DNA of 31,024 bases. Source: a virus. The notes under the pieces are model-generated. The model saw only the letters and a list, made by a program, of their open reading frames with translations. It was not told where the DNA came from and searched no databases. Below, piece after piece: positions 4,681 to 26,506 of this stretch (the first letter of the stretch is position 1; each line of letters opens with the position of its first letter). The stretch is from positions 1 through 31,024 of IMG/VR virus record IMGVR_UViG_3300043449_000513; one strand, 5' to 3'. Position numbers and translations under genes: made by a program.

Positions 4681-4713
4681 GGGCAGTCAGCAATGGCTGC
4701 CCTTCTTATTTTT
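4681..4713 (+). terminator. Rho-independent terminator after the putative tail tube gene
   Basis: GGGCAGTC (4681-4688) pairs with GGCTGCCC (4695-4702) with one G-U pair and a six-base loop, followed by the T-rich tract TTCTTATTTTT. The stem contains the ATG at 4693, which argues against using that ATG as the start of the next gene. Confidence 0.75.
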
Positions 4714-4719
4714 ACGGCT

Positions 4720-5796
4720 ATGAAGATTTGCATTGTTTACAACGCCCATCCAACCGGGTGCAGTTTCTACCGCCTCGAAATGCCGAACGCATATTTGGGC
4801 GACAACTACCCGGAGTTTGATTACGTCTGCGTGGAGAACATCACGACCATCAGCGACGAGGGATTGAAGTCGATTGACCTGTTCCTGTTCAGCAGGCTTT
4901 GGTGTCAGGGAACCATGGAGCAAGTTGAAAACGTCTACAAAGCCCTGACCCAATACGGGGCGAAAATCATCCTTGACTTGGACGACTACTGGGTCCTTGA
5001 ATCGGGCCACATCATGTACCGCCACTACCACGAAACCAAACTCGCAGAGGTCATCCGTAAGCACATCAAATTAGCCGATTGGGTTACCTGTACCACCGAG
5101 CATCTTGCCTCTCGCATACGGCCTCTAAATGCGAATGTGAGCATTCTGCAGAACGAACCCTACGAAGCCTATCAGCAGTTCATCCCCAACCCCGAAGAAG
5201 AACCCGACAAGCACCTCGTCAAGTTCGGTTGGTTCGGTGGTGCGCAGCATGGCGAGGACATGGAACTGCTCCGGGAAGGGATGCAGAAGTTACGCTGGGA
5301 TGCAAATCTTGACGGCAAGTACCGCATCTATCTTGGAGGGTGGAACGACAACAACCCCGTTTACGAGGGCTACGAGAAAATCATAAGCGACCAAGGCAAC
5401 AACCCGAACTACGGGAGGATTCAGGCTGCTGACATCTACTCCTACGTCGGGGGCTACAACTTCGTGAACGTAACCCTTGCACCTTTGCGAGATACCAAGT
5501 TTAACAAACTCAAGTCCGAGTTGAAGGTCGTAGAGGCAGGGTGGATGAATAAGGCAATTATCGCATCCGAAACCATCCCCTACACCGACGTAATCCGGCA
5601 CGGAGAGAACGGGTTCTTGGTTTCTTACAACAAGCCGAAAGATTGGTACAAGTACATCAAGCAGTTGATTCTTGACCCCGACCTTCGCAAAGGCTTGGCT
5701 GACAACCTCACGAGGGACATCAAGAAGCGGTTCAACGTGGCCGAAACCGCCAAGAAGCGGGCCGAACTATACAGGCAGATTGGGCGCAAATTGTGA
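4720..5796 (+). CDS. GT-B glycosyltransferase (group 1/GT4-like)
   Basis: The start is placed at ATG 4720 (MKICIVYNAHPTG) rather than 4693, because 4693 lies inside a terminator stem and adds only nine unlikely residues. The 358-residue product has the GT-B layout: an N-terminal MKICIVYN strand, a domain with IILDLDDYW, then FGWFGGAQHGEDMELL. The C-terminal donor site is KLKSELKVVEAG (E267, E272) with IIASETIPYTDVI and HGENGFLV. It would transfer an activated sugar, perhaps to a virion protein, to phage DNA or to host surface glycan; the acceptor cannot be told. It sits alone among structural genes, separate from the cluster at 24775-26506. Confidence 0.75.
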   Translation: MKICIVYNAHPTGCSFYRLEMPNAYLGDNYPEFDYVCVENITTISDEGLKSIDLFLFSRLWCQGTMEQVENVYKALTQYGAKIILDLDDYWVLESGHIMYRHYHETKLAEVIRKHIKLADWVTCTTEHLASRIRPLNANVSILQNEPYEAYQQFIPNPEEEPDKHLVKFGWFGGAQHGEDMELLREGMQKLRWDANLDGKYRIYLGGWNDNNPVYEGYEKIISDQGNNPNYGRIQAADIYSYVGGYNFVNVTLAPLRDTKFNKLKSELKVVEAGWMNKAIIASETIPYTDVIRHGENGFLVSYNKPKDWYKYIKQLILDPDLRKGLADNLTRDIKKRFNVAETAKKRAELYRQIGRKL

Positions 5797-20706: not shown

Positions 20707-21012
20707 ATGGACCTAATCACTCGTACAATCCTCGGCTACACGGCAGAGGTCGTTGGGGTGAACCCCGACCAAATCATCAGCAACATCAAGACCCGTGAAT
20801 TTGTACTGGCTCGCTCAATCTTTGCCGACATAGCTTACTCCGAATACATGTACAGTTATTCTCGCATCGGCCGAATCCTCAATAGGGACCACGCCACGGT
20901 CATGCACAACATAGAAGTCCTGAACAACCAGATGTGGCAATTACCATCAATCAAGCACCTTCGTAAGGAAGTTTTCAACAGGACCAAAGAATTTCTGCAA
21001 CATCCGCAGTAA
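20707..21012 (+). CDS. DnaA domain IV-like DNA-binding protein
   Basis: This 101-residue protein matches the C-terminal DNA-binding domain of DnaA: an N-terminal helix MDLITRTILGYTAEVVGVNP, LARSIFADIAY, then SYSRIGRILNRDHATVMHNI, with the signature RDHATVMHN at 60-68 (host DnaA has RDHTTVLHA-like). There is no AAA+ ATPase domain. It would recognise DnaA boxes and could mark the phage origin or compete with host DnaA. A perfect box lies at 19944-19952. The gene sits between a DUF551-like gene and a sigma-like gene. Confidence 0.75.
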   Translation: MDLITRTILGYTAEVVGVNPDQIISNIKTREFVLARSIFADIAYSEYMYSYSRIGRILNRDHATVMHNIEVLNNQMWQLPSIKHLRKEVFNRTKEFLQHPQ

Positions 21013-22537: not shown

Positions 22538-22678
22538 ATGGACTCGCTGATGATGGTGATAACCACCCTCTGCGACTGCATCGGAGCGGTGGATGAATCC
22601 AATGCCCCGAACCAGTACGAAGTGAAAATGAAAATCGTAAACAAGATAAGCGACCTAATCGACAAAATCGAATACTAA
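22538..22678 (+). CDS. Small helical protein before the terminase
   Basis: The frame ends at TAA 22676-22678, overlapping the TerS ATG by one base. ATG 22538 gives 46 residues starting MDSLMMVITTLCDCIGAVDE and ending KIVNKISDLIDKIEY. A TTG at 22487 would give 63 residues with an acidic N terminus (MANSKAKDDEEAQVQAR) and a 20-base overlap with the upstream gene. The longer frame from 22319 is unlikely since it overlaps that gene for most of its length. No family is recognised. Confidence 0.5.
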   Translation: MDSLMMVITTLCDCIGAVDESNAPNQYEVKMKIVNKISDLIDKIEY

Positions 22679-23091
22679 TGGCAGGCCGACCCCCAATTTG
22701 GAATACCCCCGAAGAACTATGGGCTGCGTTTGAGCAGTATCGAGCCGAGAACAAGGCCAACCCCTATCGTGTGCAGGACTATGTCGGTAAGGATGGGGTC
22801 ATGGTTTACCGGGACAAGGAGCGTCCGATTACCTTTCGGGGCTTTGAGGGATACCTTGCAGAGAATGGTGTTTGCCACAACCTATCGCAGTATCAAAAGG
22901 GAGATAGCGACCATCACAAGCAATTTTTACCCATCATCACACGCATAAGGCTTACCTGCGACAAGGATATGCTGGAGGGTTCAAGTGCTGGCGTTTACTC
23001 GGCCAACATCGCCTCACGTCTGCTTGGCTTGGTTGACAAGCAAGAGAACACGGTCCACATCGAGCAACCCCTATTTGGCGATGGACTTTAA
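22678..23091 (+). CDS. terS: Terminase small subunit (P22 gp3-like)
   Basis: The 137-residue protein begins MAGRPPIWNTPEELWAAFEQ and contains RPITFRGFEGYLAENGV, HKQFLPIITRIRLTCDKDML and EGSSAGVYSANIASRLLGLVDK. This is the order seen in P22 gp3-type DNA-packaging proteins: a GRPP N terminus, a helical DNA-recognition core and a C-terminal oligomerisation segment. It recognises phage DNA and stimulates the large subunit. It overlaps the previous stop by one base and contains the TerL start at 23081 within its last 11 bases. Confidence 0.8.
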   Translation: MAGRPPIWNTPEELWAAFEQYRAENKANPYRVQDYVGKDGVMVYRDKERPITFRGFEGYLAENGVCHNLSQYQKGDSDHHKQFLPIITRIRLTCDKDMLEGSSAGVYSANIASRLLGLVDKQENTVHIEQPLFGDGL

Positions 23092-24291
23092 GTACACCAC
23101 GGCCATAAAAAGAATTAGGCAGATGCAAGCCCGAAAGAAGGTTATTCAGGGCGGGACATCTGCCGGAGGTTAACCCCCGCTCGGCAACGGGTGGGGGTAG
23201 GAAAAACGCTCGCCATCCTTGCGGTCCTAATCGACATCGCAGCCAAGAACAAGACCGAGATTTCGGTAGTTTCCGAATCCATCCCCCACCTACGGAGGGG
23301 GGCAATCAAAGACTTTGCCAAGGTCATGCAATGGACGGGCCGATGGGTCGCAGACCGATGGAACAAGACGCTGCTGACCTACAACTTCGCTAACGGCTCG
23401 GTCATCGAGTTCTTTTCGGCCGATTCCGAGGCAAGGCTCCGAGGGGCAAGGAGGCAGGTCGTTTACATCAACGAGGCGAACAATATCGACTTCGAGTCCT
23501 ACTACCAACTTGCAATTCGTACCAGTGAGGCCATCTACATCGACTTTAATCCGACCCACGAATTTTGGGCGCATACCGAGGTCCTGCGAGAGGACGATTC
23601 CGAACTGCTCATCCTGACCTATCAGGACAACGAGGCTTTGCCCGACACGATTAGGAGGGACATCGAACTGAACCGCACCAAAGCCGAAACCTCTGCCTAC
23701 TGGGCGAACTGGTGGAAGGTCTACGGCCTCGGTCAAGTCGGGACGCTCCAAGGTGCGATATACGAGGACTTCGAGGTCGTGGAGGGTATAGATGTCAGCC
23801 GTGCGAAATTCGTCGCCCTTGGGCTTGACTGGGGCTTTAGCAACGACCCTACGGCATTGGTCGCTATCTACCGCCAAGGGGACTGTCTGCTGATCCAAGA
23901 ACTGCTCTACGCAACAGGCCTCACGAACCAAGACATCGCAGACAAGTTGCGGTCCTTGGGGATCACAAGGGCTTGGGAGATAGTGGCCGATTCAGCAGAA
24001 CCGAAGTCCATCGAGGAAATCTACCGACTTGGTTTCAACATCAAGCCTGCCGAAAAAGGTCCCGACTCGGTCAGGAACGGGATAGACATCCTGAAACGCT
24101 TTAAATTGCAGGTTACCAAGGATAGCACCAACCTGATTAAAGAACTGCGGTCCTATACTTGGGCGACCGACAAAGAGGGCAAGAACACGGGGGTTCCCAT
24201 TGATTCATTCAACCACGCCTGCGATGCGATGCGGTATGTGGCACTCAATAAGTTACGGGTCAGTAACTCAGGGAAGTACGTTGTGGTGTAG
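23081..24291 (+). CDS. terL: Terminase large subunit, interrupted in Walker A (candidate translational bypass)
   Basis: From ATG 23081 the frame reads MDFKYTTAIKRIRQMQARKK, then VIQGGTSAG, then GGT and stop TAA 23171-23173. The rest of the protein continues in another frame from GGA 23200-23202 as KTLAILAVLI to the stop at 24291. Joining GGA 23165-23167 to GGA 23200-23202, which removes 35 nt, gives a 391-residue terminase with canonical Walker A GGTSAGKT (24-31) and Walker B VVYINEAN (115-122). The nuclease-domain features LGLDWGFSNDPTA, ADSAEPKS and NHACDAMRY follow. This ATPase/nuclease packages DNA. Without joining, the product either stops at 30 residues or, from GTG 23191, lacks the P-loop start. 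Bypass, insertional inactivation and assembly error all remain possible. Confidence 0.85.
23168..23202 (+). other. 35-nt hairpin insertion in terL, candidate byp element
   Basis: The segment between the matching GGA codons contains the in-frame stop TAA (23171-23173) and a hairpin. ACCCCCGCTCG (23173-23183) pairs with CGGGTGGGGGT (23188-23198), 11 pairs including two G-U wobbles, around GCAA (23184-23187). It ends with the second GGA (23200-23202). G-U pairs indicate RNA-level folding. Length 35 shifts frame, so readthrough cannot rescue the gene. T4 gene 60 has the same elements: matched GGA codons, a stop just after take-off, and a hairpin with a tetraloop. No similar element was seen elsewhere in this window. 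Confidence 0.6.
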
Positions 24292-25428: not shown

Positions 25429-25970
25429 TGTCCTTCATCAATATCGTTACGCCCTGCTCAAGACCCGAAAACCTTGGAGCCATTGCGGATTCAATAAACA
25501 TTCCTAAGAATCATTACAGGTGGATTGTGGTGTTTGATGCAGACGAGGTTCCTTCCATTGGAATCCCTGCAAATGCAGAGGCACACGCCTATCACGTTGA
25601 AGGAGGTTCTGCTGGACATTCCCAAAGGAACTTCGCAAATAAACTGATTCAAGGTGGCTATGTCTTGCAAATTGATGATGATACCATCCTGCATCCTGAT
25701 TTTTGGGAAGCGGTCAAGGACTGCACCGAGGACTTGGTATGTTGGAAGCAGTGCCATAAAGACGGCCTACACCGTCTAAATGCAGGTGAGTGGCATCTCG
25801 GCCACATTGACTCTGGGTCTTTTATGGCTGACCGCAAAGTCATAGGCGACTCTCAATGGATTTTCAACCGATACGATGCGGATGGCTACTTTGCGCAAGA
25901 GATGCGAGCCAAGACCGAAAGCGTTAAAACAATTCAACAATACCTTTCATTTTACAACTATTTACGATGA
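25428..25970 (+). CDS. Glycosyltransferase family 2-like protein
   Basis: Start 25428 overlaps the previous stop by one base (TAATG). The 180-residue protein begins MSFINIVTPCSRPENLGAIA, followed by YRWIVVFDADEVPS, SAGHSQRNFANKLI and GYVLQIDDDTILHPDFWE with the DDD (83-85) metal/sugar-binding motif near the centre. These are hallmarks of GT-A fold family 2 transferases. It is short, so it is a minimal catalytic domain. It overlaps the methyltransferase by four bases, suggesting a coupled modification pathway, possibly for virion glycan, host surface glycan or phage DNA. Confidence 0.75.
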   Translation: MSFINIVTPCSRPENLGAIADSINIPKNHYRWIVVFDADEVPSIGIPANAEAHAYHVEGGSAGHSQRNFANKLIQGGYVLQIDDDTILHPDFWEAVKDCTEDLVCWKQCHKDGLHRLNAGEWHLGHIDSGSFMADRKVIGDSQWIFNRYDADGYFAQEMRAKTESVKTIQQYLSFYNYLR

Positions 25971-26506
25971 AACAAGACAAATCCGAACGCTTGCAGGAAT
26001 TACGCAACACACCGAGGGTTTATTGGACCGCTCTTGAGAATGAAAATAAGGTGGACGGCCTCATTGACCTTTGTCAAAAGTACCTCAATCCAACAGACAA
26101 ATGCGTAGAGGTTGGATGCTTTTCAGGGGTCAGTAGTCAGGTCATCGCCCTGCATTGCGGAGAGTTGCATTGCGTTGACCCTTGGTCTTGGGGTGCAGTA
26201 GCACAAGCCGAGCAAATGTTTGACTCAATGCTTGCGAATTACCCTAACATCATCAAGGTCAAGATGACCAGCGTTGAGGCATCCAAGCAGTATGCCGACG
26301 GCTCTCTTGACTTCGTGTACATTGACGCTGACCATTCCTACGCCTCGGTCGTTGCAGACATCAACGCTTGGAAGCCCAAGGTCAAGCCGGGCGGTTATAT
26401 CGCAGGCCACGACTCCTATATGCCCGAAGTCTTGAAGGCGGTTATGGACTGCCTCGGTGAACCCTTGCAATACTTCACCGACACCTCTTGGATTGTTAAG
26501 TTATGA
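25967..26506 (+). CDS. Class I SAM-dependent methyltransferase (Methyltransf_24-like)
   Basis: The 179-residue protein has the SAM-binding motif VEVGCFSGVSS (47-57), a motif II acidic residue at D71 (HCVDPWSW) and LDFVYIDADHSYASVVADIN (114-133). The last strand region is KVKPGGYIAGHDSYMPE. This is a Rossmann-fold methyltransferase like those acting on sugars or small molecules in glycan loci. Following a GT2 gene, it may methylate a transferred sugar. Overlaps of four bases link it to both neighbours. Confidence 0.8.
   Translation: MKQDKSERLQELRNTPRVYWTALENENKVDGLIDLCQKYLNPTDKCVEVGCFSGVSSQVIALHCGELHCVDPWSWGAVAQAEQMFDSMLANYPNIIKVKMTSVEASKQYADGSLDFVYIDADHSYASVVADINAWKPKVKPGGYIAGHDSYMPEVLKAVMDCLGEPLQYFTDTSWIVKL

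Follow-up and report, generated by a model that had tools for sequence, protein, structure and literature searches.

The window, as we term the whole 31,024-nt stretch of viral DNA analysed here, carries on its plus strand a terS gene (22678..23091; profile matches to DNA-packaging protein gp3-like sequences) that overlaps the start of terL, the ATG at 23081. The terL 5' exon (23081..23167, plus strand) translates as MDFKYTTAIKRIRQMQARKKVIQGGTSAG, in which the final residue is the P-loop glycine encoded by GGA 23165-23167, and its amino acid sequence is conserved in relatives with and without an insert. This GGA, the proposed take-off codon, is followed by GGT (23168-23170), by a TAA stop (23171-23173), and by a hairpin at 23173-23198, ACCCCCGCTCG-GCAA-CGGGTGGGGGT, of 11 bp including two G-U pairs and with a GNRA tetraloop; the last A of the stop codon pairs with T 23198. 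A second GGA, the proposed landing codon, occupies 23200-23202 and precedes AAA ACG, the KT of Walker A, with which the 3' exon begins (23203..24291, plus strand). From the landing glycine, 363 amino acids of TerL are open to 24288, the stop codon lies at 24289-24291, and this downstream part matches Terminase_3 / Terminase_3C and TerL PHROGs. Every element that an earlier note had described for this site, the GGA / GGT TAA / hairpin / GGA layout within Walker A, was present in the sequence.

The gap that would be bypassed is 23168..23199 on the plus strand, 32 nt in length, or 35 nt when one glycine codon is counted. Removal of 35 nt in silico restored GGTSAGKT, as had been claimed, and this equals the sequence of approximately 74 insert-free close relatives. 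Among the 80 closest relatives in IMG/VR, six contigs contained the identical insert (with GGC for GGT in one) and the rest encoded an uninterrupted GGTSAGKT. A hairpin-based scan recovered the same 35 nt at the same site in 18 IMG/VR contigs besides the window, from 16 metagenomes, and on account of this recurrence the insert is not an assembly error. Folding of the isolated 91-nt region was unremarkable relative to shuffles (z -0.9) because the region is GC-rich; the insert folded alone gave z -4.4, and equal stability was reached in 1 of 1000 shuffles. Fold prediction also indicated a possible 5' stem-loop, GGCGG-GACAT-CTGCC (23150..23164, plus strand), which ends just 5' of the take-off codon.

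The hairpin is present as a single copy in the 31,024 nt of the window, and only one terL per genome was seen in the records searched for a second one. A Pfam search of the window recognised no homing-endonuclease gene; in some other alleles such a gene lies between terS and terL. Elsewhere in the window are glycosyltransferase-like (4693-5796), methyltransferase-like (25967-26506) and DnaA-HTH-like (20707-21012) genes. Matches to the hairpin pattern outside terL were rejected as unrelated GC-rich hairpins. A separate recurrent GC-rich hairpin with conserved flanks, CCCCGTCC-GNCA-ACGGAYGGGG, unrelated to terL, was observed in otherwise different viral contigs (L082, L085, L093, L096, L097, L098 with two copies, L106, L108, L112, L116, L123 and L125).

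Hairpin inserts at one codon of terL

The observation in the window is real and larger than first stated, and extends to a family of hairpin inserts at one terL codon. Both kinds of homologue that the earlier note had sought were found: beside the insert-free relatives, at least 95 IMG/VR terL contigs carry a hairpin at the same P-loop codon, in TerLs whose identity falls to approximately 41%; this is a hand count and a lower bound from pattern-based scans, and because the contigs are related they are not wholly independent observations. A search that left the sequence of the insert unspecified (pattern GGTSAGG, 7-37 nt, GGN AAAAC) yielded at least five further types at exactly the P-loop codon, types B and C among them, and later scans yielded five more. 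Eleven sequence types of 32-43 nt, one edge codon being counted in each length, were thereby distinguished: A (35 nt; GGA GGT TAA ... GGA), B (32 nt; GGA TGC TTG ... GGA), C (36 nt; GGA TGT TGA ... GGA), D (37 nt; GGG CAA TAG ... GGA), E (39 nt; GGT TTT TAA ... GGA), F (39 nt; GGT GTT TAG ... GGC), G (43 nt; GGT TTG TAA ... GGT), H (41 nt; GGT GTC TGG ... GGT), I (37 nt; GGG CGT TAA ... GGA), J (38 nt; GGA CTT TAG ... GGA) and K (39 or 40 nt; TCG GTT TAA ... TCA or TCT). These lengths span all three frame classes (0, 1 and 2 mod 3), and within type K a spacer indel changes the frame (39 versus 40 nt) while the TerL ORF is intact in both.

In all eleven types the two edge codons specify a single amino acid, Gly/Gly in ten and Ser/Ser in type K, and the pair could plausibly be decoded by one tRNA in 10 of the 11. 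They are identical in types A, B, C, G, H and J and non-identical in D and I (GGG/GGA), E (GGT/GGA), F (GGT/GGC) and K (TCG/TCA or TCT). GGA stands at both edges in all 57 distinct A-C alleles, the take-off codon of every type A allele included, whereas 51 close insert-free relatives encode the same glycine with GGG (26), GGC (24) or GGA (1). A stop occupies codon +2 in nine types, including the in-frame inserts C, E, F and K1, and is absent from that position in types B (TTG) and H (TGG); its frequency is unbiased only for A-F (5/6) and K, because the patterns that recovered types G to J demanded TRR and CCC following the start of the gap.

Every type contains a 9-11-bp stem (z approximately -3 to -6) that begins 5-6 nt past take-off, at the third base of codon +2 or one base later, and the landing codon follows after a short 3' spacer. 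In nine of the eleven types codon +2 ends in a base that pairs with the nucleotide following the stem, A with T and G with C. Stable tetraloops were recognised in seven types: GCAA (A, C, I), GAAA (F), GTAA (J), UUCG (K) and UAAC (B). Canonical pairs filled 105 of 108 stem cells, whereas 20,000 swaps of 3' arms between types averaged 86.9 and never exceeded 102; the stems covary at the level of RNA, G-U pairs included. A 5' stem-loop before take-off was predicted in types A-D (-3.3 to -7.5 kcal/mol) and was absent from E, F, J and K, and a universal 5' stem-loop is not supported.

The inserts are strongly conserved. Variable sites numbered 1/38 in type A, 2/35 in type B and 0/39 in type C, compared with 9, 20 and 17, respectively, of approximately 29 third codon positions in the coding flanks (Fisher p of 1.6e-3, 1.2e-7 and 1.5e-8). 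Between types, gap-free alignments gave pN well below pS for the exons on both sides, a comparison from which several 3'-exon pairs that were out of register were left aside, and the downstream ORFs were complete (359-382 aa).

A scan of 2.28 Mb for the element in other genes returned only chance-like matches and no convincing non-terL instance; a scan of the genome collection gave only chance matches among the matches listed; 395 genomes from the phylum of a Flavobacterium MAG contained no element; and a scan for inserts combining TAA/TAG, a GGA take-off and a non-G codon after it returned none. Among the listed relatives from cultured phages no insert was recognised, terL being annotated as a single ORF in Flavobacterium FpV9, Phocaeicola BV200P1 and Elizabethkingia TCUEAP1, and no split terL was annotated in cultured phages with related HNH genes.

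Gain, loss and linked endonuclease genes

On a TerL tree from which the insert was omitted, its presence and absence require at least ten changes, seven of them forced by strongly supported branches, and types B, C and K do not form single clades. In L140, L164 and L177, compared with L152, type B inserts reside in TerLs otherwise of the type C clade, which suggests that insert types have been exchanged between close relatives. In the window, the last 60 nt 5' of take-off are 0.90-0.95 identical to other insert alleles and 0.67-0.68 identical to insert-free relatives, whereas identity to insert-free relatives is mostly about 0.9-1.0 in the adjoining 60-nt segments further upstream and in the downstream exon; the other insert alleles have upstream sequence of their own that is not alignable with that of the window over that stretch. 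Exon and insert therefore moved as a block, for which we infer approximate boundaries of 23095..23199 (plus strand; the insert with most of the 5' exon before it) from windowed identity to insert and insert-free alleles.

Endonuclease genes recur at the same place. Members of types A, B, C, F, I and K have an HNH gene (HNH_3, in some cases with NUMOD4) in the interval separating terS from terL; in type G the gene there combines a GIY-YIG-like start with a NUMOD3 motif, and in type D it appears GIY-YIG-like by eye only, Pfam returning no match. Members of eight of the eleven types carry an endonuclease gene directly upstream. By locus, such a gene was found at 19 of 71 insert loci (a hand count of those with enough upstream sequence) and at 2 of 106 insert-free loci, with a p of 5.5e-7 that is indicative only, because the loci are related. 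Within an insert type the HNH proteins share 94-100% identity, and across types 47-68%.

Three observations concern the terS-terL interval itself. Two insert-free terL genes (L397 and L430) are preceded in this interval, approximately 500 nt upstream of terL, by an HNH gene whose product is only distantly related to those of the insert loci; L397 and L430 may represent an intermediate state, or their HNH genes may have a different target site. In several loci of types A, B and C the interval contains a small conserved ORF (about 60-68 aa, M[TAS]D.I.E.V..Q.RTRAE.G..KYGTTM..DDLT; L009, L030, L088, L099, L107 at -247..-61, L134, L164, L217 and L225), which occupies the place of the HNH gene in other members. 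In Enterococcus phage AL3 (L460, MH203383.1), approximately 400 nt at 1480-1880 between terS and terL are unannotated, and an HNH gene lies just before terS.

We reasoned that the hairpin, together with the terL 5' exon and the HNH or GIY-YIG gene that follows terS, probably makes up a homing cassette, in which the hairpin would interrupt a conserved P-loop target and protect its carrier from cleavage. The window would then retain the exon-plus-hairpin block from which the endonuclease gene is absent; this absence, there and at most insert loci, is as expected if the endonuclease is lost after fixation. The same absence would also fit a selfish or regulatory hairpin, kept for control of terL expression and unconnected with homing, which bypass only renders tolerable; this proposal competes with the cassette and not with bypass. 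We regard it as unlikely, though not negligible, given that an endonuclease gene occupies the equivalent position in members of eight types and that HNH subtypes track hairpin types.

Expression of terL across the insert

Taken with the anatomy of the family, these data make it highly probable that the insert is a translational bypass element and that the family has spread as a homing-endonuclease cassette. The ribosome would translate terL to GGA 23165 and stall against the hairpin at the mRNA entry; codon-anticodon pairing would be lost, the hairpin passed, and peptidyl-tRNA-Gly would re-pair at GGA 23200, whereupon translation would resume at AAA-ACG to give one uninterrupted TerL with an intact Walker A. 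Were the hairpin kept folded, the unpaired distance would be approximately 6 nt in the window and approximately 6-13 nt in other types (hand count), which falls within the range of short stop-hops in synthetic constructs (PMC5009743). The stop two codons past take-off probably catches ribosomes that fail to hop, a fail-safe being the more likely role because the A-site codon here is a sense codon.

Skipping from edge codon to edge codon would serve all types, and the comparison supports the proposal that the phage hops in an essential gene: a single codon is the site of all eleven types, every frame class is represented, the edges agree in amino acid and the insert is invariant. Exons selected as one protein, and neighbouring homing-endonuclease genes such as occur in the T4 gene 60 region, lend it further backing. 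The basic residues upstream, previously suggested as a nascent-peptide signal, do not count as evidence of one: ARKKVIQ is equally present in insert-free relatives, in which the peptide upstream of take-off is nearly identical, and no KKYK-like signal could be distinguished from the sequence shared with them.

The main rival to bypass is removal of the hairpin from terL mRNA, by a nuclease and a ligase or by an unknown mini-intron, which would give a continuous frame and accounts equally well for the frame independence, the exact GGTSAGKT and the conserved hairpin. At 32-43 nt, however, the inserts are far under the size of group I/II introns, in agreement with the earlier dismissal of an intron at 35 nt, and no bulge-helix-bulge is visible. 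Under RNA removal one edge codon would be free to drift, whereas both edges encode the same amino acid in 11 of 11 types, Ser/Ser included; likewise, a stop at codon +2 (nine types, in-frame inserts among them) would have no role in splicing. Since both edges encode the P-loop residue in every type, re-pairing of a tRNA, and hence bypass, is favoured without being proven, and we hold RNA removal to be distinctly unlikely. A group I/II intron or an intein was rejected, the inserts being only 32-43 nt, usually with a stop, and matching Rfam families only below threshold.

Alternatively, the frame might go unrepaired, leaving terL inactive or TerL made in two pieces by termination and re-initiation. 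The 30-codon 5' ORF does end in a stop, and type A has an in-frame GTG (23191) within the hairpin, but this GTG is out of frame in type C, an equivalent start was seen in no other type, and a re-initiated piece would miss the first half of Walker A. Inactivity in turn sits poorly with strong purifying selection on the inserts and both exons, ORFs intact in all types, common carriers and a single terL in the records searched; an unrepaired frame is very improbable. Programmed frameshifting or stop readthrough across the insert is scarcely credible: the -1 frame is open through the type A insert, but the required shift differs between types (0, 1, 2 mod 3) and within type K, so that no single frameshift or readthrough rule applies, in-frame types retain a stop, and a translated insert would break the Walker A loop, the argument made earlier against -1 frameshifting, which holds and is strengthened by the 39- and 40-nt inserts that precede the same intact type K ORF.

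Known bypass systems and implications

In T4 gene 60, a 50-nt gap with GGA/GGA edges and a tetraloop lies just downstream of the mob homing-endonuclease gene and has been proposed to protect against endonuclease cleavage (PMC5009743, PMC3014915); the A-site stem-loop, nascent peptide and take-off stop cooperate (PMC11194080). The terL inserts resemble it in their GGA edges, stop near take-off and tetraloop hairpin in the gap (PMC11194080, PMC3014915, PMC5009743), in the position of the gap near the gene start and, in some members, in the homing-endonuclease gene upstream. T4-like anatomy had been claimed for the window, and the matched GGA codons and tetraloop hairpin bear this out; the stop was said to adjoin take-off and is instead the second codon, a sense codon occupying the A site in which gene 60 has its stop. 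The terL family differs further in its gap length (32-43 nt including one edge codon, against 50 nt), in its gene and P-loop motif, in its many types across phage lineages, in its Ser/Ser edges and in having no demonstrable KKYK-like peptide signal; as the stop position differs and bypass in terL is proposed from sequence, we do not claim membership in the T4 class.

The byp elements of Magnusiomyces capitatus mitochondria, known from 81 sites in 12 genes (PMC5009743, PMC8211752, PMC6649704), are likewise short hairpin inserts in essential genes, apparently mobile, tolerated by bypass and with edges that are not always identical. They occur in many mitochondrial genes, whereas the terL inserts sit at one codon of one gene, and no linked endonuclease gene figures in the cited descriptions (PMC5009743, PMC8211752, PMC6649704). 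Another hop has been proposed in a phage terminase gene, at a UUA codon and thought to exploit Streptomyces UUA usage, but its gap is much shorter and it was not described as a P-loop hairpin insert (PMC5009743). We found no description of the terL hairpin-insert family in the open-access literature searched. Prevotella loescheii is a member of the Bacteroidota. A 29-nt translational hop was described in its adhesin gene, in a single report without follow-up (PMC5009743). Gap size and a Bacteroidota host make this case similar to the terL inserts; it differs in lying in an adhesin gene and in not being mobile.

The family is best explained, on comparative grounds, as bypass elements spread by homing endonucleases. 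It is likely that bypass is a common mode of terL expression across a broad group of freshwater phages with probable Bacteroidota hosts, that it has been gained and lost repeatedly, and that endonucleases targeting the P-loop drive it; hairpin and endonuclease subtypes would have co-evolved, and landing would need only the same or a wobble-equivalent tRNA. For decades, well-studied programmed bypass has meant T4 gene 60 alone, besides the yeast mitochondrial byps; if our reading is true, a decoding trick detailed in one T4 gene would be common in nature, in the phages of lake water. The terL genes offer a natural library of eleven hairpin types in three frame classes, with both Gly and Ser edges and with nearly identical genes that either carry or lack the element, in which codon match, stop position, loop type and spacer length, as minimal requirements for bypass, are now directly testable. 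Standard gene callers would miss or truncate terL, a main marker for phage identification, in insert-bearing phages. The family would also support a general origin of bypass elements in immunity to homing endonucleases.
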